Shown here piece after piece: positions 2,675 to 62,818 of a DNA stretch of 64,000 bases (positions are counted from its first letter, which is position 1; each line of letters begins with the position of its first letter). The translations under genes and the position numbers were made by a program. This stretch comes from Utricularia gibba (Eukaryota; Streptophyta; Magnoliopsida; Lamiales; Lentibulariaceae): the NCBI GenBank assembly GCA_002189035.1, contig NEEC01000019.1:620001-684000 (forward strand), written 5' to 3'. The notes under the pieces are model-generated. The model made no database searches and was not told where the DNA came from. It was given only the letters and a program-made list of their open reading frames with translations.

Positions 2675-5600
2675 ATGGCATTCACGGCTGTGCACCATCA
2701 CATTGGCAGAAGTTGCGTCTACTCAGCTCATTCGAATTTCAGGTTTCGCTTTCAGATTTGTTCGCGGAGATCAACGGTGAAGGATGGGAAAAGCGCTCGG
2801 TGTAGTAGAATTGGGTTCCGGAAGCTCCCTAAAGCTTCAGCTAACAAGAACCCCACCAACAATCCCGAGAAGCTGAAGCCGAAGCCGAGAGTATCCGATG
2901 GTAGTGTCAACCCGGATCCCGTTCCTGAGCCGAAGTCACAGGTGTCGGTGCTGCATCGCCTCCGGTAGTTTATTCTGGGAATTCTTGGCTGGTGACTTGA
3001 TTTTGTATCCAGATATGTATGATATTTATATTACATTTGGGATTGTAGGGAGACATTCCAATTGGATGGACTTGGAATGGATATTCTGTCAATTGCACTG
3101 CCAGCGGCTTTAGCTCTTGCTGCTGATCCCATCACGTCACTTGTTGACACGGCATTTGTTGGTCATATAGGTGAATTTTCTTGATTTTCGTTCTATACTC
3201 GTTATTTCTACTCTGTACTAACTGGGTGGAACATGGAATTATGGTATTTTTTTTCGTTCCATTCAATGCTTTGTTGTTTTGAAGAATATGGAAAAAAATG
3301 GATAATTTTCCACCAGCAGCATTTTATGTTTATTGAGATGTGATCTTGTAGGGTCTGCGGAACTTGCAGCAGTTGGTGTGTCTGGTGCTATATTTAACCT
3401 TGTCTCTAAATTATTTAATGTGCCATTGCTTAATGTCACAACATCTTTTGTTGCTGAGGAGCAGGCCTCTCTTCGTGAGGCCTCAGATGAGAATCAAGCC
3501 ATTGCTAAAGGTATTTTTCGTGTTCTTATTATGCCATCCTGTTAGCCTTCTGCATCAGTTTAAAGGTGTAATCCGTTTGATGTTTCAGATTCATTATTTT
3601 GCAGATCCGAAAGGCAAAATATTTCTGCCTTCAATATCGAGTGCTCTCATTCTTGCTGCAACTCTTGGCGTTTTAGAAGCTGTTGCAATTTTCGCAGGCT
3701 CCTGTAATTTGATGAATACGATGGGTATACCTGTTGTATGTCTTGTTTTTCTATTTCCCAAATTCTAGTTCTTTATTCTTAGTTCTGCAGCTCTCTGAAA
3801 CCAAACATGCTTGAAGCAGTTCTCCATAAGTGTTCTATTGCATGATTTTTTACTTGTTTTCCATGAATGCTGTTTGATATCCAAAGTGATGAATCAAAAA
3901 AGTTCGTGTACACTTTACTAAGTTTTCAGTCGACCTACTGCAGGATTCACCAATAAGGCTACCCGCTGAGCAGTTTCTTACTCTTAGGGCCATTGGTGCC
4001 CCAGCAATTGTTATAGCACTTGCGGCTCAAGGAACTTTTCGTGGATTCAAGGACACAAGGACACCATTATTTGCTGTTGGCAAGTGTTTGTTTTAGTAGC
4101 TTTTATCTGTCGTGTCTACTCTTCAATGGATGAAACAAACTCCCATTCATAGCTTTCTGAAACTGGCCTGATATGATATCCATGTTGTTCGGTTGATTTC
4201 AGCAATTTTTAACTGATAAAGATAAAACTGATGCGCTGTTTCGTTGTTCACAGCTGAATTTTGAACTAATCATGACGTTGTCCTGATTCCAGGAGCTGGC
4301 AATTTACTCAATGCGATATTGGATCCAATATTAATATTTTACTTTCATCTTGGCGTTGGTGGTGCTGCAATTTCTACTGTCATTTCTGAGTATGTCAATC
4401 ATGTGGTAAACATTTAGATGAGCTACGACAGACAAATTACATTAACAGAAGCACACCTTATGTTCTGTGAATATGTTTCAGGTACCTGATTTGTCTAATC
4501 CTTCTTCTGAAGTTGAATGACAAAGTTCAACTTATTGCTCCATCCATCGATACACAGAGGCTTTCCCAGTATCTTGTGTCAGGTGATTCCTAAACTTTCG
4601 TATCTCATTTGGGGTCTTTTTAGGAAAGGAACTGAAGCTCATCGTTCAATAACTGGGCATGTTCATGTTTTCCATTTATATATTCTACTGAGTTGGTTTA
4701 AGTTGGTTCTGCAGTAAAACTCAAATCCAACTGGTTATATTTCATGAATTTTTATAAAATTATTCATTGCTGACGGTTTCATATCACCCAGGTGCCCTCC
4801 TGACTGGACGAACAGTGGCAGTCCTTTTGACAACAACAATTGCCACATCGATGGCTGCAAGAGAGGGGCTATAAAAATGGCTGGTTATCAAATCTGTTTT
4901 CAAGTTTGGTTGGCTCTGTCTTTGCTAAATGATGCTTTAGCACTTGCTGGTCAGGTATCATTTACAAGCGTAGAAAAGCAGTGCATTTCTTATTATTGAT
5001 CTTGTGAAGCAGAACAACTGACTTCTATGAACTTTTCCACAGACGATCATTGCAAGTGACTACTCTCAAGGTAACTATGGACCCGCTGGAAAGGTGGCTT
5101 ACAAAGTCCTTCAGGTTGTAAAAAAGAAAATAATTTGAAAATTTCCTTGCATATTGCCTGACTGTGTAATCTTTACCTTAACCTATACTTCATCTGCAAC
5201 CCAAATCAAGTCAGATTGGTTTTACCATTGGGGTGGCGCTGGCAGTAATCTTATCCCTAGGCTTTGATGCCTTGTCCGGGTTATTTACTACAGATTCAGA
5301 AGCTCTCGAAGTAGCAAGATCTGGAGTACTGGTAACACGATTTTCTTGGGTTGAATTTTGTATCATTTTCACTCTTCTTCTCAGTTTGGTCCTAATTTGA
5401 CATAATGTTGTTGTACATCTCAGTTTGTTGCTGGGTCTCAACCTGTGAATGCCATTGCTTTTGTCCTCGATGGGCTTTATTATGGGGTTTCAGATTTTGG
5501 ATTTGCTGCATGCTCCATGGTTACTACCCATACCTTGATTCTATCTGTTTTGTTGTTTTCCTCATAAATTAAGATGGTTGGTTAATTTTTTTATGTTGTT

Positions 5601-5942
5601 TTCTAGGTGATAGTCGGGCTCATTTCTTCCTTATTCTTAGCCTTGGCTGCTCCACAATTTGGCCTTGCTGGAGTATGGGGTGGTCTCTTTCTCTTTATGA
5701 CATTGCGAGTTGTTGCTGGAGCCATTAGGTAAATGAAAACATCACAAGCACTGTTTCTCTATGATCTTATTCTCCGTATCTCCACCTAGATCAAGGCCAT
5801 TATGTAGCTTCTTGTTTACTACTACTTCAAAATCATTCCCTTAGCTCACAGAGCAACATGAATACTTCTCCTGTTCAGGTTAGGCACCAGAAGTGGACCA
5901 TGGAGGTTTCTCTGGCTGGACACAGAAAAGGAGTTTGACTGA
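2675..5942 (+). CDS. DTX44: MATE efflux transporter, DETOXIFICATION 44-like, chloroplast-targeted
   Basis: Thirteen exons: 2675-2964, 3049-3170, 3352-3510, 3605-3735, 3944-4079, 4293-4389, 4482-4582, 4792-4954, 5043-5114, 5215-5331, 5424-5519, 5607-5728, 5879-5942. The first exon is rich in Ser and Arg, like a plastid transit peptide. The rest is a MATE core with GMDILSIALPAALALAADP, DTAFVGHIGSAELAAVGV, LFNVPLLNVTTSFVAEE, QGTFRGFKDT, FVAGSQPVNAIAFVLDGLYY and a C-terminal LGTRSGPWRFLW. These match the DTX44 branch better than DTX45. The family exports small solutes using an ion gradient; the substrate here is unknown. Intron 5 uses a GC donor at 4080. Exon 8 carries an apparent one-base loss in a G run at 4865-4868, giving an in-frame TAA at 4872-4874; with one base added the reading frame runs through to TGA at 5940-5942 (556 residues). 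I read this as a probable sequence error, though a null allele is possible. Confidence 0.88.
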
Positions 5943-6469
5943 TTCACTATGGAGAACTACCCAGAAACCCTTCACCTCTGCAGAGTTTCATTTCATATTG
6001 AGAACTCGCATTGGGAAAGTTGTATATAGCTTTTGTTCCTGCTACTTAACTGCCAGCGAAGATGGCACAGAATGGTAGTTGATTCTAGATCTCCAAATCA
6101 TTGTTGCCTAGAATTATTTTCTAGTTCAAGTTCATTGAAATCTCAATGTGGAAATAGGCAGCAGGTATGGTTCAAAGTGTCCGCAGTGATTAACATACAC
6201 CTACTTTCTTCCACATTTCATCATTGGGCATGGTGTGTGATCAACAAAATGCACTTCATACAAGAAGCCTTGCACTTCATACAGTCTTTGCAACGCAGAA
6301 AATCGGTCTGGTCTAGTCCAGACCAGCAACCTTGCACCTCTGCTTCAAATTGCGATTCTCCTGCACAAGATATGTATGATCAATGCTCAAGTGGAAAGAC
6401 GCACTTCCATCTTGACACCTACCCAGTGATGAACTTATCACAATGAAAACCACCAACTCCCATCAAGGT
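5943..6469. other. convergent intergenic region / 3' UTRs
   Basis: This lies between two convergent genes and should contain the 3' UTR of the DTX44-like gene and perhaps the last non-coding part of the BRISC-like gene. Open frames here (for example 6033-6446) show no recognisable protein features. Confidence 0.5.
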
Positions 6470-7558: not shown

Positions 7559-7699
7559 CCTTCCCCTCTCACCGTTCCTGGCTTCTGGCCCGAACCCCCT
7601 TTTAACTTCCAACGGTTTTTGTTTTGGTCTGCACCTCAGGCACCGGCCGGCTTTTCCTCCTGGCTTCGGACAAGACGAAGAAGAAACTCTTGATTTTTT

Positions 7700-8449: not shown

Positions 8450-8572
8450 GAGAAAAGTGGTCGAGGTGGGGAAGAAGGGCACATGAACCACTTGCTCAGG
8501 AATCGAATCGTTGCATCTGGTGCATGAGTTAGCAGTGCACGTGCCCTGCTTCTCCACCACGCCCACCGCTCA
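8450..8572 (-). ncRNA. MIR164: MIR164 precursor hairpin
   Basis: The minus strand at 8556-8536 reads as the 21-nt miR164 (begins TGGAGAAGCAGGGCACG and ends TGCA), identical to the conserved plant miRNA as I know it. The opposite arm, at 8485-8465 on the minus strand, begins CATGTGCCCTTCTTCCCC, very like known miR164b-type star strands. The duplex has 17 of 19 positions paired (one G-U) with two mismatches and 2-nt 3' overhangs. The loop is 50 nt, and a further stem of about 15 nt with small mismatches continues below the duplex. miR164 guides cleavage of mRNAs for NAC factors of the CUC1/CUC2/NAC1/ORE1 group, which control organ boundaries, lateral roots and ageing. An open frame over the hairpin (8329-8631) is a by-product. 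Confidence 0.95.
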
Positions 8573-8664: not shown

Positions 8665-8699
8665 CCTGGGGTGGCTGAATCAAGGGAATGTGTCCAAAG

Positions 8700-11180: not shown

Positions 11181-11183
11181 GTG

Positions 11184-27866: not shown

Positions 27867-30800
27867 TCAGGGTGGTGAGATTTCATCAGCATATATCGAG
27901 ACGCATGCATCGGCAGCACCGGCAGCGAGCAGGAGTTGGTATGGATGAAAGGTGAGGCAGGTGACTGGTCCTATCTTCTGAGCCATGAAATTTGGATAAT
28001 ACCTGATCGTGCCTAATGGATCCCCTTCTAAATTGAAAATTTTGATAAGCTGCTTCGCTGAACCACTGGCAATGAGAGGTGCATGCCGATGGACAGCCAT
28101 GGCTGTGAGCGACCCCCTGAACGCATCAATTGTAAGGTATGTTTCCTTTTCCTTGGTACGCCTCATATCCAGGAACTGAATATTTCCGGCTTGTGAAGCA
28201 CTGACGATCTACAGTGAGAGAATTCCAACAGTAGGTCAACAATATTTACTAGGGGAAAGATGGGGAGTCGGGAGGAAGACAGTTCATCACCTTTGCTGGT
28301 TCCAGTCCAGGTTGGAAAGCAAGGTCCACAACACGTTGAGTGTGAGGTTTGGTTGAGCACACAACTCTAAGGCAGAGGAAAACATATACATTATGCTTGA
28401 TGAAGGGGACGGCCATTAAAAATATATGCCCTTACTTTTCTGGAGTGCGTATATCAAACATTTTGACATAGCCATCTACAAAACCGGCAGCAAATTGGCC
28501 TCCATGAACTTGAGAAGCAGCCTACGACGCAGCACAGACAATCAAATTGGATACTAGGGTACAACTGTCAGCCAATCATCTCAGTAGGCGAATATGAATA
28601 TAACAGTATAGCTGGGTAAGCAGCAACCACTGGAACATTCTCACGCAGGACCCAGCTCATACACAATGAGAGTTATTTAAATTCACTAATCACTTTTGCA
28701 CTCATTCCAAAACCAAATCTAGCTACACAAGAGAAGAAACATACTAGTGGGAAAACCCAAGAAACCTGATGCAAGAAACTTACCAGTCCGGAGATAGTAG
28801 AACCTGACCCCAAGGGTATGCTGGTGGCAAGTTGCTCTTTGTCAAGATCCCAAGCCATTATTGACGATATTTCACTAGACGTGAACTGGTAAACAAAGAA
28901 AGGACGAGAAGGATTAAAAGAATCCAAATAAGAGAGTAAATGAAGGAAACCCAAAGTGTAAATAATATGAATTTGAGGGCAAAACAGAAAACATAAAAGG
29001 AAATATATATGCACTATCCTATGAATTTGAAAATTAATGCATTCCAGAGGATAAGGGTTGCGAAAATAAAAAAAATAAAAAAAGTAAATGACGGGCAACA
29101 TATATATGCATTCAGATGCGAATTTCAACATCTGAAGGAATACAGACAATCCAAATATGAAAATGTAAAAACACAAAAAGGAAAATTTGGGTATGAATCT
29201 GAGGGCGTACAAGATATCCAGACTGCTGCTGCCAATCCACCACAGCATTCATACAGCGCCCCCAGGTCTGAGACCCTGAGTTGAAGCAAATGCAGTCACC
29301 AATTTCTGTTGCTCTGTCAAAGTGTAATCTTTCCAAATCCGAATACTCCCATCATCTGCAGTCAGATAAAAAGAATGTAGGTTAGTTATCCACTAGATGG
29401 ATTGTTAAATCCTTTCAAACTTGAGTCCAGATATTTACTTGAAGCAACAAGAAGCAAATTTTCATCGAGTTCATTGACAAGGCATAACTTGGAAATCCCC
29501 TTCTCAGGGTAATCATGGTTATTGAAGCTGTTGAGCAATACCGCCTCTTCATAATTCCAAACCCTAAAAAATTATCAAAAAATACTTAGAATATGATACA
29601 GCTACATAAAAGTTAGTGGGCATCGAAGTTCGCTCAGATTTTCCTACCTGATCCTTTCATTTTCATCTGATGCAATCACAATGGGTGAAAAAGGTTGGAG
29701 CAAAGCTGTCCTTGAGCCAGTTTCAAACTTCGTATCCCAACCAGCAATTTGATTATGTAGTTTACTCACAGCTGCTAACAGAATACACGATTAAAAAGAG
29801 GTCCTAGTGCGGAAAACAGTCACAAGAAACACTTACATGAGTGTTGGCATTTAACTATATGCTCTAGGGCTTGTTTCTCCCTTTCTTCCCGTCTAAAATT
29901 TACATCTTCATTATCATCAACAGAAGTAAGAAGCGGCTTTGAAAAGTGACCGCAGCTCCAATTATAAATCATTGACTGTGGGAGCAAACTACGTTCCAAA
30001 GCAGCAGAAGTTGAAGGGGAACCTAAAAGTGGATCAGCTAGTCCAGAGTCTGGGGAATTCAGGAGATGTGGCCGAAATTCTAAGGAGGAGCAAACTCTTC
30101 GGATTCCAGTTATGTAGCTTGGTCTGGGAGGGCTCACAGGAGGGGTTCTGAAAGTCAATGGCATATGACCCCTACACATCACAAGTTAACAAATAACTAG
30201 TTAAACACAATTCCACCAATAAGAAAAATGAGTAAGAGGTAAGAGAATCTAAATGAATCCATCACAACATGTGCAGTTGAAGAGAGAGAATATGTTACCG
30301 CTTAATTCAAACCAAGATGATGACCGAACTAATCCGGCAAGACTGGCACTAGATGCTACAGCTGATTCACTAGGACGAGCATTTCCACCAATGAACTTAA
30401 CTGGCTTTGTAACTACTTGCTCAATCCCAATGATGGCCAGTACTTTTCGTCCAAGATTTGCAACACGTGGAGACGGGTCCTTGGCAAGACTGCACATAGC
30501 TATTACACTTTGTGAATATAAGGCATTCTCAAGTGGCTTTGGCCTGCCATGATTGAGAACACCATTGCTAGCACAATCATTCACAGCTCCAGAGTCCGAA
30601 TGCAGAGAAGAGTCATCAGAAAGCGGTGACCCATGAATCATTCCAGCAGTGCCAACAGGGCTGCTGGTGGAAACTCTCCCATCACGACTAACCGCTGGGG
30701 TCTCGTTACCAACTTGTAACATTGGGGCAATGGATTGAACTGCACTTCCTGGTGGCATATAGTGTGGAGTTGCATAGCCAGAACCTGAACCAAAAGTTGC

Positions 30801-41714: not shown

Positions 41715-42129
41715 TGGATGAGCAGTCAGCCTACTGCGGGCTTATCAAGTATATTGTGAACTACTGAACCAGGATTCACACTAGTTGCTTGACATGGTCT
41801 TGTAAATTATGTAACGGTATGCCATCATGTAAATAAAGGTGTTTGATTGAAAATGGACCACACTGGAAGAGAGTTTGGTTTCCAAAAATGTTATTGTAAC
41901 TGTGCAGTAGTCCCTTTAGTGTTGGATACAGATTTCAATGTTCATGTAGTGTTGGATGAAACTTTCAAGAGTATCTCGAACCTGTTTCTATGCGATGCTG
42001 GACTAATCTCCCATACAAGGGAAAAAGAAGGAAGATAGCATAGCAACTGAGGTGCAGTGCATCTGATACTAACAACTACCTCTTTCCTTCCTCACAAAAC
42101 TACTCAAATGACCAAAGAGACTGTAAATC
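41715..42129. other. 3' region of the saposin-like gene
   Basis: Should contain the 3' UTR (a possible polyadenylation area near 41815-41840, AATAAAGG). No other gene was seen. Confidence 0.5.
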
Positions 42130-44983
42130 TGGGGGTGAGTACAGGCCTCCGATGGGGGATTGACTGATCGTTAAGCTTCCAATATCATCTAGAGGAGGCT
42201 TCCCATTCCTGCTGGAGAGAAATCCCACCAGCAACCAAAGTAAAAGGACTTAATGAGACACAAGGCATCCTCATTCGGAAGGTTCAACGTGAAGGCTAAA
42301 GAAATGTTGATACTTGGTTCAGGGCACCTCTGGCTAACGGTTAACCGAGCCTCCGGGATCCCCATGCATGAGACTGTGGTCAGCAGCTTTATCTCCGGGC
42401 TTCACCAGAGTTTGCTTTTCAGGTCCAGGCAAAATATGAGGCATCCATGGAAAATCATCAACTGCAGGAGCATGATTACTAAATGTTACACCATTTTGGA
42501 AACGTCCAATCATCACATTCTGAGGATGTTGAATGCGTAACAGCTGCTTGCCGTTCTTGAATATGGAAGCAATTTTTTATTAGGCAACGGATGGACCACT
42601 TCCGGAATGATCGGCGGATTATTCCACATCTGCCAGCTCTCAGTTCACTTGAGCTAATCAAGTTATCCTGAGCCGTCAGAGTAGCAGAAAACAGAAAAGA
42701 ATTGCTACTCCATTCTACTGATATACGTGTCCTCAATGATGGAGATTCAATGGGGGATGGCTCCATGACTTCAGGAGTTCCGGACTGTCTTCACATGATA
42801 AGGTTTTTGTAGACCCTTATCAGTTAAAGAGCTTACATCCATCTGAAAGTTATCCAGTAATTCAGAAACAGGTCCAAGTAAGTATTTTGCATCTGGTACA
42901 TAACAAGGGTCTCCATAAATCTCAGAATCCTCAGGTAAAAAACTTGGAGGATCTCTGGTTGCAGGAAGAGCATATTCATTTGGTACTGAAACAGCTGGAT
43001 TGTGATCAACTAAATGGAGAGGAAAAGAAGGTAAATGAAATATAGAAGGCTGCCCAGAGTTAAAAGAGTTGTTAAACGACTCTGTTAAGTTGCATGATCA
43101 TTGAAGGCGCAATGGGCGGATGATCGGCAAAATAAATGAATCCAATGACTGTTTTGTGGGTATAAAAGTCTGTGGCGCAATGGGCTCCTGCACCAAAATC
43201 ATTATAAAATTCGTCAACCTATCACTGAATACTCATTATAAAAACATTATAAATACTCAGTTCATAGACCAGCATCGCAACCACAATGACCCACAGGCTT
43301 CCATATGACTGGACATGGATAGCATAAGCATGAAAATCTACATATTCCAAATGCAAAAAGGTAAATACAGAACTTTCGTAGGCTATTGGAAGCAAGTTTT
43401 ATGTGTAGGCTGGTGAGCATGATGTAACCATACCGAAGGTTTAGTGTGGACAATTTTTCACATCAATAAACACTCCAGAAGATAAACAGGAGTCTCCTTT
43501 AGCTATCTTATCATCACACTCAATATATAACCAAATGAGTGAAATGAAGCGCAATGAATGCAGATGTCAACGAAAGAAAACTTACACTGCAATTTGCACT
43601 TTTATAGTCAATGCTATAGCTTTGTCCGGCACGATAGTCATGTTGCATTATTTCCTTCCTGCATATAGCATTGTGGGAATTTTCTACCGTAGTACCTAAT
43701 GCTTCATCTGAACATTAGATCTACTGATACTTTTACCAGAAAAAAACATTTCTTGTGAAGGCTCGGGAAGATGACAAAAATGTACCCTTCATTTGGTCCA
43801 AGTACCTGGTTCCAGCATCTCCTCTGCTTTGCATGTTTGCAGCAGCAGTGTTACCTGGTTCCGCATGGCTAGTCTTAGAACGTTCTGGTGTATCTCTTCC
43901 GATCCCTTTTATAAGGCTCTTTTATCTTGTTTTGAGCATTTTCTTTACTGGCTCTCTTTTCCATTTCTTCGACATCTGAGTTGCTTTACTAGAACCCTGT
44001 ATCCTTTCCCTTTTTTGTCCTTGAGCTTCGTATCAGATTCCATTCTACAACTTTCTTCTTTCTTCTACTAATCTAGCAACCTCTTCCCTCTGCTATCTTT
44101 CCTACTCCTCCAATAACTCTTTCTCTAGTGTAGCTAAACTTTTCTCAGTTTTTCCACCAGCTGTTTTCCCTCTACTCTGTTGAAATCCTACTCCACTTTC
44201 GCATCTACTTTCCATCATTTCTCTTCGATCTGCATCATCACCTAATGCGTCATCTCTGGAACAAGTAACCCTGAAAATATGTCTAAAGAGCCACGTGATG
44301 CATGGGAAAAATACAGTTAGTATTTTGTAAGCAAAAGTCCAAACATGCGAATAAGACTTTTCCGTGGGGCAGGGGCCTTCATCGGAATGAAATTAGTCAC
44401 CAAAATACTGGCCTACAATTATTTGACTTTCTAGAAAAAGTTGCAACCCAATTCCCATTGTCCAGCGAATCCTGCCCACACATCCACCCACTCCGAGACC
44501 AAGTTTGACCATTTGGAATCCCGCCGCCTTCAACCATTAGATCTTTGAAAATTCCTGAATTACCAGCTTCAGGGGGCACAGGCAAATCAAGAACAGGCTT
44601 CAAAGAAATGTGCCCGCAGTAAGAACACAGAAACTTGCCACCACCAGATTATGATCTCTACACGCAGTCAAGCAGCTCCTGCACTTCATAGAGGCAGTTT
44701 TCCTCAATTTCCGCCATTCAATAGCTTCAAATCTCATCCTCTCTCGATGCAACGTATTCCTCTTAGCTCTCCATGCCGATAAATGCGGCATCAAAGTCTC
44801 ATGCCAAAACAGTGTCACCTGTAGAACCATTACACGAGAGAGCCTGGGTGGCCTGATTTCCAACCTGAATGCTGGCAGCAACTGCTGCGACATAGCCCAT
44901 AACCCAATCACTAGAATCACTAGCCACGGCAACATGGTAGCCATCTTCCTTGAGCACCTCTGCATTACACAGAGAATGCAAAT
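42130..44983 (-). pseudogene. pseudogene of a plant NST1-like (stress response protein NST1-like) gene
   Basis: The minus strand retains order and sequence of a conserved plant family: CILCVMQRCSRKMATMLP, LLPAFRLEI, LFWHETLMPHLSAWRAKRN, MRFEAIEWRKLRKTA, then in another frame FLCSYCGHISLKPVLDLPVP and NGNWVATFSRKSN, further EKELLEE, EEVARLVEERRKL, GTRYLDQMKGTFLSSSRAF (about 43812-43752) and, near 42760, PSPIESPSLRTRISVEW. Damage is extensive: the family start Met is replaced by Ile near 44983, there is a frameshift near 44647, a TAG at 44104-44102 inside the acidic coiled coil, and more stops soon after. Possible splice-site remnants (near 43585) suggest a duplicated gene copy, not a processed one. 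Family members carry an N-terminal membrane segment and a long Glu/Lys/Arg coiled coil; their role is poorly known. Confidence 0.75.
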
Positions 44984-47900
44984 TATCTTCCGTACCCCGC
45001 ACCACCCCATGCCCATTAATAAACAATGAAATTCAGAAAATCCGCACAAACTTTCGAGGCGCGATTTGCTCGGAAACAACCTAATTCCGAAAAGCATTCG
45101 AAAAACATCCATCAGTTGATCAATAGAGGCCAAAAACAGTGATGTCTGGTTTGAAAGCATCATCCAGACGCTCCGACAACAGATACTGCAATAAACGACG
45201 GATTCCATTTCAACAAATTACAACGAAAAAGAAAAATAACGACTGAGGAAATTACACATGCACCACTTTTTTCACGCATAAAAAAACAGAGAGTGGCGGA
45301 GGCGGAGCTCCGACGCGACGATTAGCTGACCGGAAGGAAAAATTACTTCACAATAAAACGAGAAATAAACAAAAGCACAAAAAGATTTTTGTAATGATCC
45401 TATGCCCTCAATAAGGAAATGCCACGTCTGTTCATAAATCTAATTACAAAATATTCAAAATATAATTAATTACTCATTCAGTACATTTCACATGGATTTT
45501 GGCGATTAGCATGACCCAAACATTAAAAAAAAAAATCTTCTTTTAGAATTATAAAAATCATTCCATGTATCATATTAGACTATTTGAAATCAATAGCACA
45601 ATACCTGCAAAGCGTGGATAAGTATGTTTTGTGCTTTTGGCATATAAGGTATGAATATATTGTTATTATTAAAAAAAAAATTAAATCATTTCTATTGTTT
45701 CTGTAATTAATCTGACAACCGTCTAATAATTTTAGGATTACATTTTAATTAAATATAATTTATCTAATTTATTAATTATTGATTTTACTAAGATTTTATT
45801 TTTCACATTAATAAAATAATAAACACAATAAATTTTAAATAAATGTATTTTAACAGTATCCTAATAAGATAATTTCAAATTTATCATATCTATATCTCTG
45901 TGTTTGTATCTGGACTGATGATGTATTTGTACCCGTGCTTTGTAGCATAATACACGATCAAATAAGTTGAATATTTAAAAATATTAGAAAATATATAATT
46001 TATAAATTATCAGTAGATACAACTACACATAATTAATATATTTAATAAGTTAAATTGATACGGATGAATAACTAGTACATTTAATGTTTTGAAAAAATTA
46101 TATAACATACATATTTTTAAATTTTATAATTTGAATTAAATCTTTATAATTTCTTTTATTCTCAAAATTTTTTAAAAAACTTCACATATATAAAAAAAAT
46201 CAAAAAACCTCTAAATCAAATTATATTATATTTATAAATAAATATAAATTAAATCCAATTTAATTCCATTTTTTTATTTAGAATCAAAGACATTCTCATT
46301 AAAAAAAAAACCAAAAAAGTACTTATTTCTATTTTTTGCAACTGGCATTTAATGCCCATGATTTAATAGTGAGCAGGGCAAGTGATGGCGGCCTGTGGTA
46401 ATGGCTGTGGAACGCACCACCTCACACAAAAATTGAATCATGTTAATATTTTTTAACTAAATTGCATATTTTTTATAATAAATAGAATCGTGTTAATACT
46501 TATTGCATATTTATTATTTTATGAAATATAATTATTTTTAATATCAGAATCCAAAAATATTATTGCATCGGATCCAATCCGGGTTCGCCCGAGATTTTAA
46601 AGTGGTGCCCGAGAATTATTGAGTTATGGCCACTGGGCAATCGCTTTGAAGTTGGAATCCATCATTGGATCAATTATTTTATTCTCTGTAATCTGCTTCT
46701 AAATATTTAATACCGCTTTAATTACGAAAATAATATTTTCATAATTAATAATTCCAAATTCCTCTACTTGAGGATCGGAAATCATTTCGAATATTGAGAA
46801 TTATTGCAATTATTCAACCAAAATCATGAAATCATAGTTTCGTAAATAAATTTACATTATGCAAAAAATAAATTAAATTATCGAGAATGAAGGGGAGTCA
46901 TATGTGGACCCCACGGGATCGTATTCCTTTTCTTTTTTTTTCTCAATAATGAAATAATAATTAAAAGAAAAAAAAGAATCCAGTCATGCCACCGATATAA
47001 AAGAGACAATCGATGGGGACACCCGAGCAAGATGTTCGATTTGAATTAAAGTTGGCATTTAAGACAAATAAATATTGACGCGATCCAAAAACACCTGTCT
47101 GCACTAATAATACTTTAGGATCATTTGTTTGTTTTTAGCTCTAGATTCATCTTATTTTTTTGTAATAAATTAATGATGAAAGTAACCTCTTTATTTTCCT
47201 AAATAAATGCTCTTTTTTAAATAATAGGAGGAGAGGAAAAAAAACACATAAAGTATAAAGTTTTGATGACTATAAAGAATTTAACTTTAAAATTTCAAAA
47301 TTGTAATAAAAATATATTAAGTTGTTAAAACCATTTAATAAAAATCCAAAAAATTTTCAAAATTTTTAAAAATTCAAACTATTCATGGCATCATGAATTG
47401 ACTCTGGTTTCAAATATAATAAAATTTCATATAAGGGTTTTTTAAATTAACATTCGAAGTTTGATGAATCGAATAATACTCTGTTAAAATTATATCGTAT
47501 TTATATTTCATATACTTCAAAGTGATAATGATTATATCATGTTCATATTTACGTTTTATATGATACATCGTTATAATAGCATAAATATAAAAAATAGTTA
47601 TTATTAATAACATGATAAGTTAAATATATAATTTTATATATTTAGGAGCAATTTTAAAAAAAATAAGTTAAGGTTTATATAATGTAATTTTAAAACTTAA
47701 AATTTAAAATATATATACTGATTGTAATTTGAAATGTCGCTTAAAACTCTACCCAGGCAAAAAAAAAAAAAAATTCAGTTATCCCATGAGGTAATCGAAA
47801 TTAGAACTATAAAATAAATATTTATATGGTAAAGCGAAAAGCATTCTCAAAATAATTTATTAATTCTTTTTACTTGGGTGTAAGAAGGGGCCACAACCCC

Positions 47901-49274: not shown

Positions 49275-51324
49275 ATGCCGGTGAAACACGCCGCTTTGCT
49301 GGGGAGAAGTCGCCGCCAGCCGGTCGGGCGACCTGAAAGGAGGAATGTTTATGACCGGAGGCTCTTGAAATCTTTGTTGGATCATTCCGAGGCGGTGGCT
49401 TCGATGGAGCCGATGAGTGTTCTGTTGAGGAAGACATCGGCGTCTGTAATTAGAAAAGCTCTGATGATCTCGGTTGTGGTGGAGGAGCTTGCTCGGGATC
49501 CTCCGGTAAACGGCTTTTCTACTTGTGCGATTTTATGTTTCGAGGAATTATGCGTGGTTCTGCAAAGAATTAGGGCACTGATTGAAGACTGTGCCGCCGG
49601 TAGTAGAATGTGGCGTTTGGTTCAAATTCCTTTCATTTTGGATTCTTTTCATCAATTGGTTGGGGAATTGGCGATGGTGCTTGATATTCTTCCGGTGGAT
49701 GAGGTTAATTTGAATGAAGATTTGAGGGAATTGGTGAATCTGGTCCGAAAGCAGTGTTATGAGAAACCTCCATATGGTTGGGATTCAGATGATGTTACCC
49801 TCAGAAACGAAGTTCTGAGAATGCTGGAGAATATCAAAAGAGAGATTGTCCAGATCGAACCATGCTCTCCGAGATATTTACGAGATTGAGATTGACCGAC
49901 TCCGCAAGCTGCAGCAACGAAATTCAGAATCTTGAAAACGAGGTCAGAAGTCAAAACGATGAATCCAGAGCCGAGGAAGCCATCGCCCTGATTGGGCTCG
50001 TCCGCTACTCCAAATGCGTCCTCTACGGCGCTTCGACTCCCAGAATCGCCCCACGGCGGCAGAAATCGGCGTCGGAGCTCACCGTTCCGGCAGATTTCCG
50101 TTGCCCTGTAACCCTCGATCTGATGATGGATCCCGTCACCGTAGCAACGGGGCAAACTTACGATCGCTCGTCGATAACCATGTGGATTGACTCCGGGCAT
50201 GCCACGTGTCCCAAAACAGGGCAGCGCCTGGCTCACACGCATCTGATCCCCAATCTGGCGTTGAAAAACCTGATTGCCTTGTGGTGCAGGGATCAGGGGA
50301 TTCCGTTAGATTCAACGGAGTCTCATGTCAAACATAACGGCGTACACTCCAACAAGGCGTCGTTAGAGGCCACCAGGATGACGGCGTCCTTTCTCGTTAG
50401 TCAACTATCGGCGGCGTTACACTCGCTGGAGGAGACGGATCGCGTGGTTTACGAGCTCCGTGTGTTGGCGAAGACGGATTCCGATAGCCGAGCCTGCATC
50501 GCCGAAGCTGGAGCCTTACCTTTGCTGCTCAAATTCCTAGGCTCGGAGCACCCGAGCCTGCAAATCAACGCCGTCACCACCATCCTCAACCTCTCAATAC
50601 TCGAAGCCAACAAGACCAGGATCATGGAGACCGAAGGAGTTCTTAACGGCGTTATCGAGGTTCTTAGGTCAGGATCAACATGGGAAGCGAAGGGGAACGC
50701 AGCAGCGACGATATTCAGCTTATCCTGGCCACACGCCTATAGGAAGATGCTGGGGAAGACGCGTATTATCAGGGCATTGGTCGATTTAGCAAAGATGGGA
50801 CCTATGAGTGCTCAGAGGGATGCTCTGACGGCGATCACGAACTTGGCCGGTAACAAGGAAACGGTGGGGAAGTTGTTGGACGCTGGCATCGTGGGGTTGA
50901 TCGGTGATCTCATGGACGTCCTCCCGAGGAGGCGGTGTCCATTCTCGAATCAGTGGTGAAACGCGGCGGCCTGCCGGCCATTTCAGCCGTCCACGAATGT
51001 AAAATGATGGAAAAGTTGATCAAGGTGATGAGAAACGGCACTGATAAAGCTAAGGAGAGAGCAACGGCCACGCTGGTGGACATTTGCCGTAAAGGGGGAT
51101 CCGAGATGGCGGCGGAGCTGGCGGAGGTGGCAGGAGTGGAGAGGATAATCTGGGATGTAATGGGAACGGGATCGGGGAGGGCGAGGAGGAAGGCAGCCTC
51201 TCTGTTGAGGATTCTTAGAAGATTCGCAGCGGACACGGTTATGGACAACCTAAGTATGGCGCTCGGTGAATCAACAACTCTGGGTAACGTTTTAGCCTCT
51301 ACACGGATAATACTGCCAGCATAA
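49275..51324 (+). CDS. PUB16: U-box E3 ubiquitin ligase, PUB16-like, with ARM repeats
   Basis: Intronless gene. The U-box N-terminal domain is seen first (LCFEELCVVLQRIRALIEDC, LDILPVDEVNLNEDLRELV). The U-box is PADFRCPVTLDLMMDPVTVA..TYDRSSITMWID..ATCPKTGQ..LIPNLALKNLI, which binds the E2 enzyme. Armadillo repeats follow for substrate binding (SRACIAEAGALPLLLKFL, INAVTTILNLSILEANK, WEAKGNAAATIFSLS) and a C-terminal GRARRKAASLLRILRRFA. The reading frame shifts twice, near 49850 (GTCCAG, where the family has IVPD) and near 50923-50926 (before EEAVSILE). Each is a one-base loss in a C or G run; with both restored the frame is 684 codons long. I favour sequence error over pseudogene because the whole protein is otherwise well conserved. 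The start is the ATG at 49275. Confidence 0.85.
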
Positions 51325-53495: not shown

Positions 53496-53499
53496 CTGT

Positions 53500-53507
53500 C
53501 TATAAAA
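53500..53507 (+). promoter_or_regulatory. TATA box of the OVATE family gene
   Basis: CTATAAAAG here is a good TATA box. The expected transcription start near 53530 lies downstream of the first in-frame ATG (53466) and upstream of the ATG at 53568, supporting the latter as the start. Confidence 0.5.
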
Positions 53508-53567
53508 GCAGTGAGAATCATTGCGGTCTGCGCCTCAAAGTCGTTGAGAAGAGAAGCATCTAACGCC

Positions 53568-54166
53568 ATGCCGCAATCATCGGCACTTGGTCGACGGTGG
53601 CTTTGCTGCTTCGCTCCCTCTTCTTCTTCTTCTTCTTCTGCAACTCCCAATCGCAAGCTCAGACTCTCACACGTAGAGAACACCGCCAACAATCCCTCAT
53701 CTTTTCCTTCTTCCGTTATCTCTCACTCTCACAGAAAATCCAGCTACTTCACTAGACAGCCGCCGCGGGGGGCGCCGTCTCTGACACCGTTCTCGAGCTC
53801 CGGAAGTCGTTGCGCCCGATCGTCACTAAGGAGAAGGACGCAGTAACCCCCAATAGGCGAAGCAAAGTGGGTGTCTCCCCACGTGGTGGTGTGAGGCTCC
53901 GACCGAACACGCCCCGACTGTGGCGGAAGAGGGAGACCCAGCGGCGGCGGCGACGGCAGGGAGTCGCGGTGGTGAAATGCTCGAGAGATCCCCGGAGAGA
54001 CTTTCGGGATTCGATGGTGGAGATGATACTAGAAAATGGTTTAACGCAGAACAATGAGCTGGAGGAGCTTCTCGCTTGCTACCTTTCACTCAACTCCCAG
54101 GAATACCACGATGTCATCATCACTGTCTTCAGACAACTGTGGTTTGACTTCGTTGCTCCATTGTAA
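53568..54166 (+). CDS. OFP: OVATE family protein (transcriptional repressor)
   Basis: Begins MPQSSALGRRWLCCFAPSS with a Ser-rich N-terminal half, passes through DTVLELRKSLRPIVTKEKD, and ends in a complete OVATE domain: VAVVKCSRDPRRDFRDSMVE, MILENGLTQNNELEELLACY, LSLNSQEYHDVIITVFRQLW. OVATE proteins repress transcription and interact with TALE homeodomain and TRM proteins, shaping organs such as fruit and leaf. The N-terminal and C-terminal halves lie in different frames. Both join if one base is added to the run of six G at 53767-53772, giving a 200-codon frame. This is probably a sequencing deletion. No intron is needed, as usual in this family. Confidence 0.82.
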
Positions 54167-56516
54167 TTTCCTCTGCTTTTCACATATTTAAAAATATAAA
54201 AAAATGCCTCAAATCCCAATAATTTAATTTATTCAAAATATTTTGCAATATTAAATCATTATATTACCCCACATCCAATTTTAAATTTCAGTATAAAGTT
54301 AGAGTATATGATCAATTGATTAAATAAATATTTAATTACTAAATGTGCAGAGTAGAAACCAATGTATTAAAAAAAACCCTAAATTTTTATATACTTTGCA
54401 AAATACCCTCTTTCTTTCTTTTACTTTGTGAAATACCCTTTTCAAAGAATGAATTTTGCAATATTGAAACTTCATAGCTTATCGAATTTCTAGTAATATG
54501 ATGATGCTTCTTTTCTTTGTGTCCATTTCTACAAAAAAATATGACAATAAAATCATGAAAAAATGAAGTAGCTTTTGTGAAATGCATGATTAGTTGGATT
54601 CTAAGTTTTAAACCCTAGTTTAAAACTAGATCTCTATAACGCCGGTTCGGTTCATCTAAAAATATTAAAATATAAACATCAAATACTAACAAAATAACAC
54701 TAAATAGATTTAATAATATGTATCTTGTATATTTTCATTACTAAAAATGTAAAAATTGAAGTATTATACGAATATATTCACTTTAAAATTGAAACTTCTG
54801 AAAACCTATTAATCATTTCCATTGTTTCATTTTAAATAAATTAAAACTTGAAGTTAAAAAAATTTTAAGTCCAAACCAATAATCGAAATTCTAGTTAATC
54901 CATTCGACTCAACGATTAACCAGTAGGATTAACTAGTCGAGTTGAAATGTCATACTAATAAATAAATAAATTGTGAGAAAGGGTTATTTACCTAATTAAT
55001 TAACCCTAAAATCCATGGAAATCGTGAAGCATGCTCTTGGGAACCAAAGGCTGCTGCGGCGCACAAGACTAACATGCTCTCCTCCTGTGTTCAATGTACA
55101 ATCCACACACTCCTTAATTATTGTATTTATTGTTATTGCAGTCGTGGCAGAAAGGGATTGGCTGGTGAAGGGGATGGGCCTGGGCCGTCGCAGATGAAGG
55201 AATGTGCATTGTAGGCCTAGGCCCACTTTGTCGGGCAAGTGGGTGCGACACAAAAAGCCGCATTTTGTAGTCTCCAGGTACTATCTCTTCAGCTTTCACT
55301 CAAACCCCTGTAAAAAACCTTGCTTAAAAAGCTGCATCAAATTCAAATTCATTTCCAGTAACAACACCCCAGTAGCTTCATTTTTTTTAGCAAAAGATAA
55401 AGTTTTCTAAAGAGTCTATGTATGCCAGTGTTCTGTTTTCATAATTTCCTGAAATGATTCTATTTAATTTTTAAGTATACTCATATTTAATTATTCTATA
55501 GTAAAATCATAAATTTAGATTATATGATTAATTTCAAACATTATTAAATTTATTGAATATTAAATAAAAAATTACAATACTTTTAATATATTAAATTTTA
55601 TAATATAATTTTATATTATCTCACAAAACATTTTTACAATCTCAAATTGATTCTATTTAACTAATTTTAAAGCTAATTCTATTTTACATAATATCATGCA
55701 CAACTTCAAATTACAAAGCATACCCTATATCTCTCTATGTTCTTGGAGCAAAACCCAATTGAGCAATAAGTGCTTCTAATCCTTTCTGAATATCCAAGAT
55801 CATGGAGTATAACTCTTCAAGTGTTATAAAGCTGCACATACATATAAGAATGATGTATTTGTACTTAGTCTTATTATTTTTTGTGAAAAAGCTGCAAATA
55901 TTATTATTCTCCCTTTTTCAAATTTATGGGATGTCCCCAAGGGACGAATATTATTCTCCCTGTTGTGTAGGATAACTGGGCACTCGGCACCCACAAGCAA
56001 ATTATCAGTCAGATTGTGACTTCAATACTAATTTTTTGTATTAATATATGAAATATGAACTATAAATTACCATTTGTTTATAAATGATTGGAGTAACTAA
56101 CCTGAACAATTTAACTTTTACTAAAACCCATGTCTAATCAGACAATAGACATGTGTAATAAAAAGGATAGGATAAAAAGTGGGATTGTTTTCTTGTTTCA
56201 GATTTATGGGGAATTTTTAAATTTAAATTTATGATTTTGATCAAAAGATAAATTAACAATATCGCTAAAAAAATGTAATTTTATAATCAATTTTTATGAT
56301 AATAAATTAATTCGATACGTTTTAAAATAATTTCTATTTGTGGAAGTAGTAGTAATTATTATAAAATGATTTTTAAGAGAGCAAGGAGACGAATAAATTT
56401 TGTGGGCCGTTTCAAGCATTAAACATGATATGGGCTACAGGTTTATTGCTGTATTGTAACGGGCCGTTACTAACGGCCCAGAAGAATATATACCGATTAT
56501 TAAATTTAATTAGAGT
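54167..56516. other. intergenic, AT-rich
   Basis: Includes a copy of the dispersed AT-rich repeat at about 55445-55730. A short open frame at 55015-55197 has a hydrophobic stretch but no conserved features. No gene was recognised. Confidence 0.4.
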
Positions 56517-56525
56517 GTTTGGTAT

Positions 56526-56604
56526 AGAAAAATTAATATAAATAATATTGATTAATAAATACAATATATTAATAATAGTATACGCAATTAGTAATAACGC
56601 TTTG
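56526..56604. repeat. left terminal inverted repeat of the MULE
   Basis: 79 bases, the inverted partner of 60179-60257. The outermost 25 bases differ at a single position between the two ends; the inner part is more diverged. Confidence 0.85.
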
Positions 56605-56725
56605 TCTATCACGTCATTATTGATGACGCTTTAGAAATACACGTCATCAACGATAGCGCTTTAAAACTATATGGTGGTGACTTGGAGTGCACACACCATG
56701 ACACCATCATTGATGACGCTTTGCT

Positions 56726-57417
56726 TAGGGTTGTAAACGAGTCAAGCTGGCTCGCGAGCTTTTTCCAATTGGCTAGAGCTCAACTCGACTACAACTCGGC
56801 TCAATCGAGCTCGAGCCGAGCCAATATTGAGTACGAGCCAGTTGTCAAGCCGAGCTCGAGCTTAAAATTCAAAGGTTCGAGGCTCGCAAGTTGGCTCGCA
56901 AGTTTTTTTATAAAAGTTTTTTAATAATATAAAATTAATTAAAATACTGTCAAATAAATATATTCAATATGAAAAATGAATTATACAATAAAAATACATA
57001 ATATTTTATTGTTTAAGAAATTAAATCAATTACTATATTAAAAAATGATCTAATAATATAAAATTGAATCTCAACCATACATATTATGTTATTCAAAATA
57101 AATATATGATATAATTAAATATTTTTTGTGGTTTGTTTTTATTTTGATAGTATTGTATTTTTAAATAATTATAATTAAAAATAATATTTTAGATATTAAT
57201 TTTATAAAGTAATTTTGAATTAAAAATTATATAAATAAAAAAATTAATAAAAAAATTCAAGTTGACTCGAGTTGGGCTCGAGCTTGAATCGAGCTCGAGC
57301 TCAAGCCAAGTTTTCCTAGGCTTGACGAGCTTGAGCCTAAAAATGTGTGATTGAGCTAGAGCTCGAGCTCCAAATTTCCTAGAAAGCTCGGCTCGACTCG
57401 ACTCATTTCCAACCCTA
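56726..57417. mobile_element. hAT-type MITE nested in the MULE
   Basis: Begins TAGGGTTGTAAACGAGTC and ends with the inverted form (minus strand TAGGGTTGGAAATGAGTC). It is flanked by 8-base sequences GCTTTGCT (56718-56725) and GCCTTGTT (57418-57425), identical at six positions, with the other two differing by transitions. Eight bases and a TAGGG end are typical of hAT elements. Both arms are packed with GAGCTCGAGC-type repeats, while the middle is AT-rich; the arms could fold into a large stem. There is no transposase. The sequence type is common in plant genomes. Confidence 0.78.
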
Positions 57418-57751
57418 GCCTTGTTACATGGCACCATCAATGATGATGCCTCGGTGCTCGCAATAAGCTATTTTTTTGAAAGTAGTTTGAAAACAATCAT
57501 AAATAAAATATCCAAAATAAATAACTCTAACTTGCAATTAATCAAAGTTCAAACCAGAAAAAACCAAATTTATCAGACTATTTTGCTGGTGGAGGATTCA
57601 CTCCTCAATCCATCTCGTTGTGTATTCTTGTGCGATGCTATCTGCCAACAATAGTCCGACGGCGTGTAGGATCATGGTATAGGGTCCAGCTCGGGTAAAG
57701 GATATAGGTATCAAAGTCAAGAGGGTTGAAAACCTCTTCACTATACGTTTG

Positions 57752-59630
57752 TTACAACACATACAATATATCGAGACTAATCATGAGATCGTCGGCACTT
57801 ACCTTCACCTTTTCAACAGCAGCAATAGCATGAGAGCATGAAACACCATACTTAGTCCACTTTCCACAACTACAAGTCTGATTACAAAACATCACTCTAT
57901 AATGATAACGTCTCTCTTTCCCACGGCTGACGACTTCAATCTTAAATGACATATTTGCCGTCTTGAGTTGACGCACCTTGTGTGTCTTAGCTCGTTCACG
58001 TGTTTTGCCTCATCCGAGAGCGCATGCATACATAGATAACAAGTGTTATACATAAAGTAAAATAATAAAACATTACAAATACTCAAAATTAAGTAACCTC
58101 AAACATAATACCCGATGGTTTTCTATCATCGAGGTGATCTCCTCTTTATGCTCGCGAAGGATGCTAGCTGACTTGTACAACGTAGTCTCAACAATTGTAT
58201 TTGAGGGAAATTGACGGCAAACCTTGAGAATGTTGTTCATGATCTCTCTTGCATTAGAAGTTAGATTCCTGTAGCATATGCCTGAATCATATGAGAGTGT
58301 CCATCTCTCATATGGATCATTTTCCCGCTCAAAGAACCATGCATAAGCCATCGGATTTTTCTTTTGAATCTTTTTGAGGTACATCATCATCTTTTTTGAA
58401 TCACAGGTTGCTCCGGCGTTGTAAGCCATTTGCTTAAATATTTTGCTTCCAAACTTCTTGTTGAAGTTGGAAACATAATGACGCAAACACCAAAGTGGGT
58501 CAGAAGGCCTTTTTGAAACCTAGCGTAATTTCTCACAGCTGCAAGCGAGCCAACAGCTCTGTCCGAGATTATACTACCCTAGCCTCGACAAAAAAAATGT
58601 TCATCTAGCAAATCCATAAACCAAAGATATGTATCTCTACTCTCCTTGTCGATGAATGCATAGGCTAACGGTAGGATGTGACCACCTCAATCCTTGGTAG
58701 TGGCCACGAGCAACTTGTGGTCATAACGTCCATATAAAAAGGTGACATCGATCATAACAATAGGCCTGCAAAACATGAATGCTCAAATAAAGGGACCATA
58801 GGCCCAAAAAACATAGTGCATGATTTTATGATCATCTCCTGCAATAGTGGGAAAGCAGTCCCACGAGATCACTGTACTTGGATTGGTTTGCGTGATTGCT
58901 AGAAATAATACAGTTAGCTTTTGCACTGATAATTCTCATGTTCCATAGACCCACTCAAAAGCAAGTTGAGCACCGTACCATGCACATTCATAAGTAATCT
59001 TCTTTTGATATTTTTCAAAAATGCATTTTCGAACATCTGCAACCTTAATCTCTACAAAAAAGAAAAGTTATTAAAAATATAAACTATGTAAAAAAAAATT
59101 AAGAAATATTTAAACTATACCTTCTTCTCTATGTGAAGTATGCATAAGTTCATATCCAATGAATAAACTAGAAAGGTTGCGATGTTGCGCTCCATCCATA
59201 TATGTCATGCAAGTATGTGAAAAGTCACAGACCGATATTTTCCAAACTCCATCACGTGCAGATCGCATAATCCGTATGCGCCTCATATCCTCGTTTTATA
59301 TGATAGTGGGCAACACAATATTGAGGATGAACTTTACTAGCAAATGCAATTTCCTTATTCAGCATGTACCTTCTCATCGTATCGCCTATATTTGCCACCA
59401 TATTTAAATTCTTCGAATATGAAAGTGTTTACTAGATTGTTTTGGATAGAGGGTATTCCTCTCTCACGAAACACCCCGGAGAATCGTCGAGAACGAGATC
59501 CGGGCAATTGTACTGCACAAGGTGCCTCAATTCCGGTCTCTGGTTCTTCGTCCACACAAACATTTGTTGGTGGGGCTTTAGAATCCTCACTTGAGTCGAT
59601 GTCTCCACCGTCATCATCAAAGACGTCCAT
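57752..59630 (-). pseudogene. MuDR-type transposase, broken
   Basis: Read on the minus strand from 59630: an acidic N-terminal region (MDVFDDDGGDIDSSEDSK), a MuDR DNA-binding-like segment (59460-59355), a MULE catalytic segment with PIVMIDVTFLYGRYDHKLL and GGHILPLAYAFIDKESRD, in which an Asp of the DDE triad sits in IDVTFL, then WFMDLLDEHFFC and SIISDRAVGSLAA. A helical part follows (58486-58073), then a SWIM zinc finger CSCGKWTKYGVSCSHA with C-x-C-x10-C-x-H (57870-57825). In-frame stops (for example inside the catalytic segment near 58698) and frame changes make it non-functional. The enzyme family cuts and pastes elements with long TIRs. Confidence 0.85.
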
Positions 59631-60178
59631 ATCTTAAAAAAACAATTAATGATAATAATTTCATATATTAAGACTTAATCTCACTAAAATTAACTTCTAT
59701 GGGGAATACTTCAACCACATTCACACTTGGATTGTTATCATGGTTTAAAGATAATGATAATTGAAGACTCGGAAATGCATCTACAATACAATTAATTATT
59801 ACAAATATAAAAAAATGGATGCCTTAACATATGTAATAAAATAAGTACTTCCATAATTGACATTTGGCATAGTGGTGCAAGGTCATGAAGGAGTATGTGA
59901 ACTTTCAACTTCATTGTAGGGCAAATCAGATGACATTCCCAAAAAATCAAAAAAATCGCTAGTGTATTTATCCATTTTGAAATGGTAAAACAAATATATG
60001 TAATCAATTATTGTATAATTATTATGAAATATAAAAATTTAAATAAATAATACTATAAAATGAAAAAACGATATTACCAAAATTTTCTTCAACTCCGATT
60101 CTACTCAACTTTGAAGATGAATGAAAAAAATTGTGAAGATGTAAGATATATGTTGATGCCACTACTCATTGCGGATAT

Positions 60179-60257
60179 CAAAGCACCACTATTAGTGGCA
60201 CATAATATTATTAATATAATGATTTTAGTGAACAATATTATTTATATTGATTTTTCT
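60179..60257. repeat. right terminal inverted repeat of the MULE
   Basis: 79 bases, the inverted partner of 56526-56604, next to the 9-base target duplication at 60258-60266. Confidence 0.85.
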
Positions 60258-60266
60258 GTTTGGTAC

Positions 60267-60590
60267 ATGGATTTTCAGGTGGGTTTGGTAATATACCCAT
60301 TATTGGTGCATGGGTTGCAGGACACCATTATTCAATTTACTTAAAGTTTTTGGATTACATTTTTTTTACGGGTTCAACTTTATTATAAAAATAAAATGAT
60401 TATCTCAATTTATTATATCTAATTTCAAATTTTTTTTATGAAAATTATAAATTTTTTCCAAATAGATCATGGATTGAAATTGTGGCGTAACCTCACAGTC
60501 ATTCCTAGGGTTTACTAGGCTCCATCTTCCAACTACCCATGAGCTACAGCTGTGCCTATCAATGCATCGTGCTTGTAAACACCGCCAATT
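60267..60590. other. upstream region of the first lipid-transfer gene
   Basis: AT-rich to about 60480, then a more balanced promoter with a TATA box at its end. No gene was seen. Confidence 0.5.
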
Positions 60591-60596
60591 CTACCC

Positions 60597-60603
60597 TATA
60601 TAA
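60597..60603 (+). promoter_or_regulatory. TATA box of the first nsLTP gene
   Basis: CCTATATAAACTC is a strong TATA box. The start of transcription near 60627 lies after the ATG at 60616 and before the ATG at 60655, so it selects the latter as the start codon. Confidence 0.7.
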
Positions 60604-60654
60604 ACTCGGACTCCATTGAAGCATCAAGTAAACGCTTTTTTGCACGAGACATCC

Positions 60655-61095
60655 ATGGCCGCCGTGTTGAACCTCCTCCTCCTAGCTCTCATCGCCACCG
60701 CGGCGCATTACTCTGCGCCGGCGTCAGCCTTCACCTGCGGCGATGTCGATAAAAACTTGTCCCCATGCATCAGCTACACTCTCGGTTCAGGAACCACTGT
60801 CCCGAAGCCTTGCTGCGACGGAGTCCGGGCGGTGAACTCGCTCGCCACCACCACTGCAGATCGCCGTACCATTTGCAACTGCGTGAAGAGTGCCGCCGCC
60901 GGTTACGCCAACAACCCCCGCGCCATCGCCAAGGTTTCCGGAATTCCAGCCGCCTGCGGCGTTTCTGTTGGCTTCTCCATCACCACCAACGTCAACTGCA
61001 ACACGTACGTGTTACAGAAGTGATTATTATTACCTATTTATTGTAACAGAGAAGAACTGAGGACTAACTCATCTGCTTCCTGCAGCATTCGTTGA
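60655..61095 (+). CDS. LTP: non-specific lipid transfer protein, type 1
   Basis: Two exons, 60655-61004 and 61086-61095, give 119 residues. A signal peptide (MAAVLNLLLLALIATAAHYS to about residue 27) is followed by a mature protein with the eight-cysteine pattern C-x9-C-xn-CC-xn-CxC-xn-C-xn-C: TCGDVDKNLSPC, PCCDGV, CNCVKS, AACGV, VNCNT. nsLTPs are secreted, bind lipids in a hydrophobic tunnel, and serve in cuticle building and defence. I chose splicing at AC|GTACGT because the second exon then gives NCNTIR and a stop, the usual nsLTP ending, with an intron two codons before the stop. If the intron is kept, the tail would read NCNTYVLQK and stop at 61021-61023. Confidence 0.9.
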
Positions 61096-62325
61096 TCGAA
61101 GAAGGAGGCAGAGCCGCTGGCATCTCCAGGCCAACGATGAAACCAGTAGGAGTAGTAGTGAAAAAGGCGCCATGGATCCATCTGCATGATCTGAGATGGA
61201 CGGAGTATTTGTTTTAGTTTTTCTAAGGTGATCATCGTTCTCCAGTTTAGGTTTCCAGCAAGCTAGCGCTTTCATTCATCTCATGTCCCGGCTCCAAAGA
61301 TCAGTCAGGAAGTTAGTGAGAATATTGGTCATTCTATCTGTTTGATTTTAATTGAAAGTGATATGTTTGTTTCAGAAAATGATCTCATCAATCAAATGGA
61401 ACGAATCAAAATAAGTAATCTTTATTGAAATTAAGAATCCGATAAATCAAATAAAATCACATTAAAATCAAGTATAAAATAAATATTAGATACAATCTAT
61501 TACAAATTATTTATACTATTTTATATAATTTAACGTATCATATTAATTTTTCAATATAAAATTATTTGTTCTAGTTCTAAATCACACGTTCATTCATTCT
61601 ATCTAAATTCTAGATTATCTCATTTCTTAAAATATTTTTAAAATTTAACTAAAAATTATTAAATCCAATTGAATTCATTAAAAAAATAGTTCAACTAAAA
61701 TCCATGACTAAATCGAATAAACAATTTTAAAACAATTGTACTTCCAACAATGACCCAAATAAGATCCTCTCACCATTATTAATTTGTGTCATGACGTCAT
61801 TTTTATCTACTTCAGCTTATTTAAAAAATAATACCTGACTTTTTCTTATTATTTCTAAAATATAAATGACATTAATTCGATATTATTTTTTAAAAATATA
61901 ATATTTATATACCATTTTAAAATGTGGTCATGACACTCTTAAATATTATGAAAGAAAAGTATCTATTTTGTTATGATGAGGATTCGATTTCCAGATCTGG
62001 AGGCAACGAGGCCACGTTGGTGGTAATTAATGGGGTTAGTTGGGATTAACTCTTAATTAATCACGCAGCAGTAAACGTCGTCGTCTTCCCACCGGAGGAC
62101 TGCCTTGCCCTTGCCTACTGGTGAATAATTGGGTACCTCATTTTCATGCATTTACTTCATTTCACCAGCCTACCTTCCTGCAACGCAACGGATCCCGATT
62201 CCCAATCACTGTTGCGTTTTGATGTGCATTCATTGCGCATTTGGCTCCAACTTGAAAAGATTCTATCAAAAATTGATGATCTTTTCTTTTTTTCTGGTGC
62301 GAACGGAGATTGGGATGCACGCCTC
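61096..62325. other. intergenic region between the two nsLTP genes
   Basis: Starts with the 3' UTR of the first gene, then AT-rich DNA (61330-61970). No gene was seen. Confidence 0.5.
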
Positions 62326-62327
62326 TA

Positions 62328-62336
62328 TCTATATAA
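62328..62336 (+). promoter_or_regulatory. TATA box of the second nsLTP gene
   Basis: CTATATAATG lies about 40 bases before the ATG at 62374, suitable for a transcription start just before the coding region. Confidence 0.5.
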
Positions 62337-62373
62337 TGGGGGTCTGGTGGATCGCAGGACGCACTCGAGTTTA

Positions 62374-62818
62374 ATGGCTGCGGGTTCAAAGGTTTTGCTT
62401 TTGTCGCTTATCGCGGCGGCGCTGTTTTCCGGTCATGGGGTGACGGCGGGGGTTACCTGCGACGTGGTGATCTCCGGATAGCGAGATGCATCCCCTACGC
62501 TTCCAACCCGAGTAACTCATCTCCCACGGTGGACTGCTGCAAGGGGTAAGGAATCTGAACTCCATCGCCAAGACTACCACCGACCGTCAGAGCGTTTGCA
62601 AATGCCTCAAAAGCCTCGCCTCCGTCTACCCTCCGAGCACCGCCATCAGAGCCGCCACGATTCCCGGGAAATGCGGCCTTTCCATTCCATACAAGTTTGA
62701 TGCCAGCATCAACTGTGCCACGTAAAATGCTCTGAATTCTAAGATCTGACAATGTTGCTGATTTGTAACATCGCACCATTTTACAGCTTGATTTGTTTGA
62801 ATTTTCAGGGTGCGGTAA
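62374..62818 (+). CDS. LTP: non-specific lipid transfer protein, type 1, frame broken by two one-base gaps
   Basis: A signal peptide (MAAGSKVLLLSLIAAALFSG) and a mature nsLTP start (VTCDVVIS) read in one frame. The rest (IARCIPYASNPS, DCCKG, RNLNSIAKTTTDRQSVC, CLKSLASVYPPSTA, IPGKCGLSIPYKF, INCAT) reads in two other frames. One base is missing at about 62475-62477, causing TAG at 62479-62481, and another in the run GGGG at 62543-62546. Exons are 62374-62721 and 62809-62818, ending NCATVR like the neighbour. With both bases added the length is 119 residues, the same as the gene at 60655. This and the intact eight cysteines argue for sequence errors. The pair is a tandem duplication, though fairly diverged. 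Confidence 0.82.

Follow-up and report, generated by a model that had tools for sequence, protein, structure and literature searches.

Single-base frame breaks in five genes of the window

The window, the 64,000-nucleotide stretch of Utricularia gibba DNA analysed here (C142:620001-684000), carries five genes with interrupted reading frames, which code for a DTX44-like MATE transporter, RAPTOR, a PUB16-like U-box/ARM protein, a member of the OVATE family and the second of two nsLTPs; the first nsLTP gene and an NST1-like pseudogene are listed with them for comparison (Table 1). An earlier note had reported seven frame breaks in these genes, all of them deletions, and had held that adding one base at each restores the family protein. 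When the window sequence was read directly on both strands, all seven breaks were present; each amounts to a one-base loss, with no convincing insertion among them, and reading past each break restored the family protein. No frame break was noticed in a TBL-like gene (0.9-2.2 kb) or in the gene at 20.5-22.1 kb of the window. Five of the seven breaks fall inside 12.7 kb (49800-62550), a denser spacing than in the conserved families sampled elsewhere.

Table 1. Genes with frame breaks in the window and the two loci used for comparison; positions are those of the window.
Feature	Position	Strand	Site or state
DTX44-like MATE transporter exon, break 1	4792..4954	+	GGGG 4865-4868; 163 bases
RAPTOR WD40-region exon, break 2	29211..29355	-	CCCCC on + at 29259-29263
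PUB16-like U-box/ARM gene, breaks 3 and 4	49275..51324	+	49848-49862; CCC 50923-50925
OVATE family gene, break 5	53568..54166	+	GGGGGG 53767-53772
Second nsLTP gene exon 1, breaks 6 and 7	62374..62721	+	GG 62476-62477; GGGG 62543-62546
First nsLTP gene exon 1, intact comparison neighbour	60655..61004	+	open frame
NST1-like true pseudogene, control, not among the seven	41900..45300	-	mixed lesions vs homeologue

The DTX44 exon is one base short for the phases of its flanking introns, and its two frames meet as ...SMAAREG / IKMAGYQICFQVWLALS. Since the relatives of DTX44 elsewhere in the assembly are only 44-62% identical, the gene is, as judged from sequence, probably single-copy. The two halves of RAPTOR lie in different frames, the first ending in ...TQGLRPGG; the exon phases fit a one-base loss, and the product aligns with Arabidopsis RAPTOR1 (5wbi) both before and after the break, with 1170 bits in all. 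This is the sole Raptor_N locus of the assembly, that is, RAPTOR is single-copy. The OVATE gene has its start ATG in the first frame and the Ovate domain in the second, downstream of the break (Pfam, E=1.1e-25). In DTX44, RAPTOR and the OVATE gene the loss lies within a G/C tract, and the protein is compatible with more than one choice of missing base. Joining the three frames of the second nsLTP gene gave a match to PF00234 (E=9.9e-12), with the Pfam domain flanking the breaks on both sides. Read past its breaks and spliced, the gene codes for 119 residues, and so does its neighbour, just as had been claimed. The first of its losses (CCGG|ATA) is beside a run of two, and the lost base is as possibly T or C as G; T or C in place gives Leu, which is usual in the family.

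Two copies of PUB16 bear on its breaks

The frames of PUB16 meet as ...NIKREIV / PDRTMLSEIF... at break 3 and as ...DLMDVLP / PEEAVSILE... at break 4, and the Pfam U-box, Arm and ARM_PUB domains lie on either side of the breaks. A paralogue at C375:2073300-2075700, 82% identical, is open through both sites (open frame C375:2074549-2075592). Only two non-triplet gaps separate it from the window gene, and they are exactly at breaks 3 and 4. By alignment with the paralogue, the first loss is at about 49848, in a stretch (TTG|TCC) that has no G/C run of three bases or longer.

A second copy, at C3:4957000-4959700, is 98.5% identical to the 3' half of PUB16 and matches from window position 50082 on. 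Over 1,250 bases, 18 substitutions and a single gap separate it from the window; the gap falls at break 4, where the copy reads CCCC and holds the very C predicted to be missing from the window. This recent copy has an open U-box/ARM frame of 417 residues without the N-terminal domain.

Like losses occur on other contigs

When the whole assembly (100,091,633 bases in 516 contigs) was searched with HSP70, several contigs gave neighbouring matches whose frames differ by the absence of one base. With a frameshift-aware aligner, breaks were confirmed within long conserved HSP70 exons at C451:3343878, C496:433406, C255:2810218 and C255:2810099, and at C1:2261331 in a BiP gene; none of these HSP70 and BiP alignments showed a convincing insertion. 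EFL1 on C151 has a like one-base break at GGGG, and the retained NST1-like homeologue lacks one G at C375:1517847, reading GG where the window copy reads GGG. All breaks accepted outside the window, in HSP70, BiP, EFL1 and NST1-like genes, are minus-one breaks in genes that are otherwise intact. The aligner models introns only approximately, and frame changes that it set next to an intron were discounted as artefacts of that model; histones, tubulins and RPB2, surveyed in the same assembly, gave no acceptable frame break. Thus, the one-base-loss signature is not confined to the window; it is spread over the assembly and includes essential genes. The window has seven breaks in roughly 14 kb of coding sequence and the family surveys about seven in roughly 87 kb, the latter figure being a rough sum from surveys that are poor in power for short exons.

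One further HSP70 break, at C304:2236277 and identical at C241:17783, may be a real mutation, because it lies in an A/T context and both contigs have it. The HSP70 copies concerned (C241:15098-19294 and C304:2234766-2238962) are nearly identical over about 3.2 kb and diverged beyond by substitutions; since they are not a clean pair, their use as a direct meter of error was dropped. Other candidates were rejected: the CCT frame change at C412 turned out to be an intron, while two odd tubulin matches at C1:5059605-5059932 and C413:5267839-5268186 have many lesions and are apparently real pseudogenes.

The breaks are enriched at G/C runs

The earlier note had placed all seven breaks in or beside G/C runs. 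This held for five sites; the first break of PUB16 and the first of the second nsLTP gene have no G/C run of at least three bases, and the lost base is not fixed there. Moreover, for several of the window and HSP70 sites, the paralogue check indicated that the lost base is possibly one that interrupted a run and not a base of the run itself. A table of loss against run length was striking, but it took every lost base to belong to the run, which the same check showed to be unsafe. Because the lost base may interrupt a run, a random-deletion test was used in its place: bases picked at random were removed from intact coding sequence, and each junction was scored by its longest G/C run, a scoring that allows for runs made by the deletion itself. 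Against this null, G/C runs were longer both at the seven window sites (P <=5e-6 to 1.9e-4, by the width allowed) and at eight outside sites (P 3e-5 to 3.3e-4, likewise by width). Conversely, A/T runs at the break sites were shorter than expected from random deletion. Long G/C runs are not always collapsed, since the window keeps a run of 11 G (C on the minus strand) at 36268-36278.

A true pseudogene in the same window looks different

The gene at 41.9-45.3 kb, on the minus strand, which we take to be NST1-like, was compared with its retained homeologue at C375:1517601-1521800 (71% amino-acid identity). The window copy is interrupted by four in-frame stops and has large deletions, and its frame changes are of both signs. 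Such mixed lesions (nonsense codons, indels of both signs and of various sizes) were not seen in the five broken genes. Within these 64 kb, real decay thus has another appearance than the seven breaks. The stretch of C375 that retains the NST1-like homeologue also holds a PUB16 remnant, near 1514.9-1515.1 kb; with NST1-like kept and PUB16 reduced on C375, the two blocks have lost opposite copies after duplication.

Consensus error as the probable source of the breaks

We conclude, with a probability of roughly 0.9, that the seven breaks are long-read consensus errors and not true mutations. The like losses on other contigs and the G/C enrichment over the null speak for this reading, which the earlier note had preferred, and so do the C3 copy of PUB16, which keeps the missing base at one site, the conservation of single-copy RAPTOR through its break, and the different lesion spectrum of the true pseudogene. 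Some doubt comes from the two sites without a G/C run of at least three bases and from the HSP70 break shared by C241 and C304. The broken-looking genes of the window are probably alive. Consensus error of this sort is a well-known artefact. For U. gibba, PacBio reads were assembled with HGAP, a procedure that ends with Quiver polishing, and the contig N50 is 3.4 Mb (PMC5793159). The consensus had been described as unpolished, a wording that, taken literally, probably does not fit, as HGAP assemblies receive Quiver polishing (PMC5793159); probably, it was not corrected with accurate short reads. The present assembly would very probably derive from PacBio continuous long reads, assembled by HGAP and polished with Quiver only. 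Single-molecule reads would often drop a base in a run of G or C, and the consensus caller could then settle on a run that is one base too short; where the short run falls in an exon the frame would break and a working gene would look dead, the true DNA presumably having the missing base.

Comparable errors have been described. In Streptomyces albus SM254, assembled from P6-C4 data with HGAP v3 and Quiver, 205 indels remained, and "nearly all" of them were in homopolymers of G or C (PMC4832174). The likeness is that of G/C-run indels in a PacBio assembly polished with Quiver, as was presumably the case here; the Streptomyces errors, however, were found only with Illumina reads, which proved and corrected them, whereas the window breaks were read in the assembly sequence, and that genome has 73% G+C against 37% in the window. 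In Xanthomonas genomes, a nine-G run was the site of Quiver frameshifts (PMC4853030), again artificial and again in a PacBio consensus, but there one long run in one gene family is concerned, while the window has mostly short runs (2-6 observed bases) and its genes are unrelated. Two other papers deal more generally with errors that fragment genes in long-read assemblies, run-length errors that mimic pseudogenes among them (PMC12007338, PMC8812927); unlike the genome studied here, the genomes they treat are small or bacterial.

That the five genes are instead young pseudogenes, with real and recent mutations in redundant copies decaying after the genome duplications of the lineage, seems very unlikely to us. 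Real decay does occur nearby, in the NST1-like copy and in the PUB16 remnant on C375, and PUB16 has an intact paralogue (C375:2074549); but the stops, insertions and large deletions of the true pseudogene are missing from the five genes, all seven breaks are minus-one and G/C-run-enriched, and coding sequence is conserved on both sides of the breaks. RAPTOR, moreover, is without a second copy, and plants that lack RAPTOR are badly impaired; the earlier note, too, had judged independent pseudogenisation of this central growth gene unlikely.

We rate about as low the proposal that the assembly took up real slippage alleles, that is, G/C-run alleles shortened in the sequenced clone, heterozygous or somatic. 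G/C runs are natural slippage sites and some contigs (C241, C304) look like alternative copies, yet slippage would be expected to yield gains too, and also to affect A/T runs of at least three bases, which are commoner than G/C runs in this coding DNA; neither was seen in the window. Were the losses real, a flowering plant would be surviving with its only RAPTOR gene out of frame, and this would belong to a burst of gene losses at G/C runs; to this we give hardly any chance. Finally, programmed frameshifting or RNA editing that restores the proteins is scarcely credible, as nothing more than the conserved frames after each break speaks for it and the genes are unrelated, share no slippery motif, have breaks of one sign in all seven cases and, at one site (PUB16 break 4), have an intact copy.

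If consensus error is the source of the breaks, the length of G/C runs should be checked before gene counts, pseudogene calls or claims of gene loss are drawn from this assembly. The contrast between the five broken genes and the NST1-like true pseudogene suggests a simple triage: lone minus-one breaks at G/C runs in a gene that is otherwise conserved are suspect, and nonsense codons with mixed indels mark a gene that has truly decayed. Such errors were also weighed as a possible cause of the DCL3 truncation published for U. gibba, an idea that was dropped because the authors of that work had confirmed the truncation by 5' RACE. Several contigs are of round size (C1, 8,500,000; C2, 6,192,500; C409, 2,492,500; C505, 3,452,500), which suggests chunked processing or trimming.
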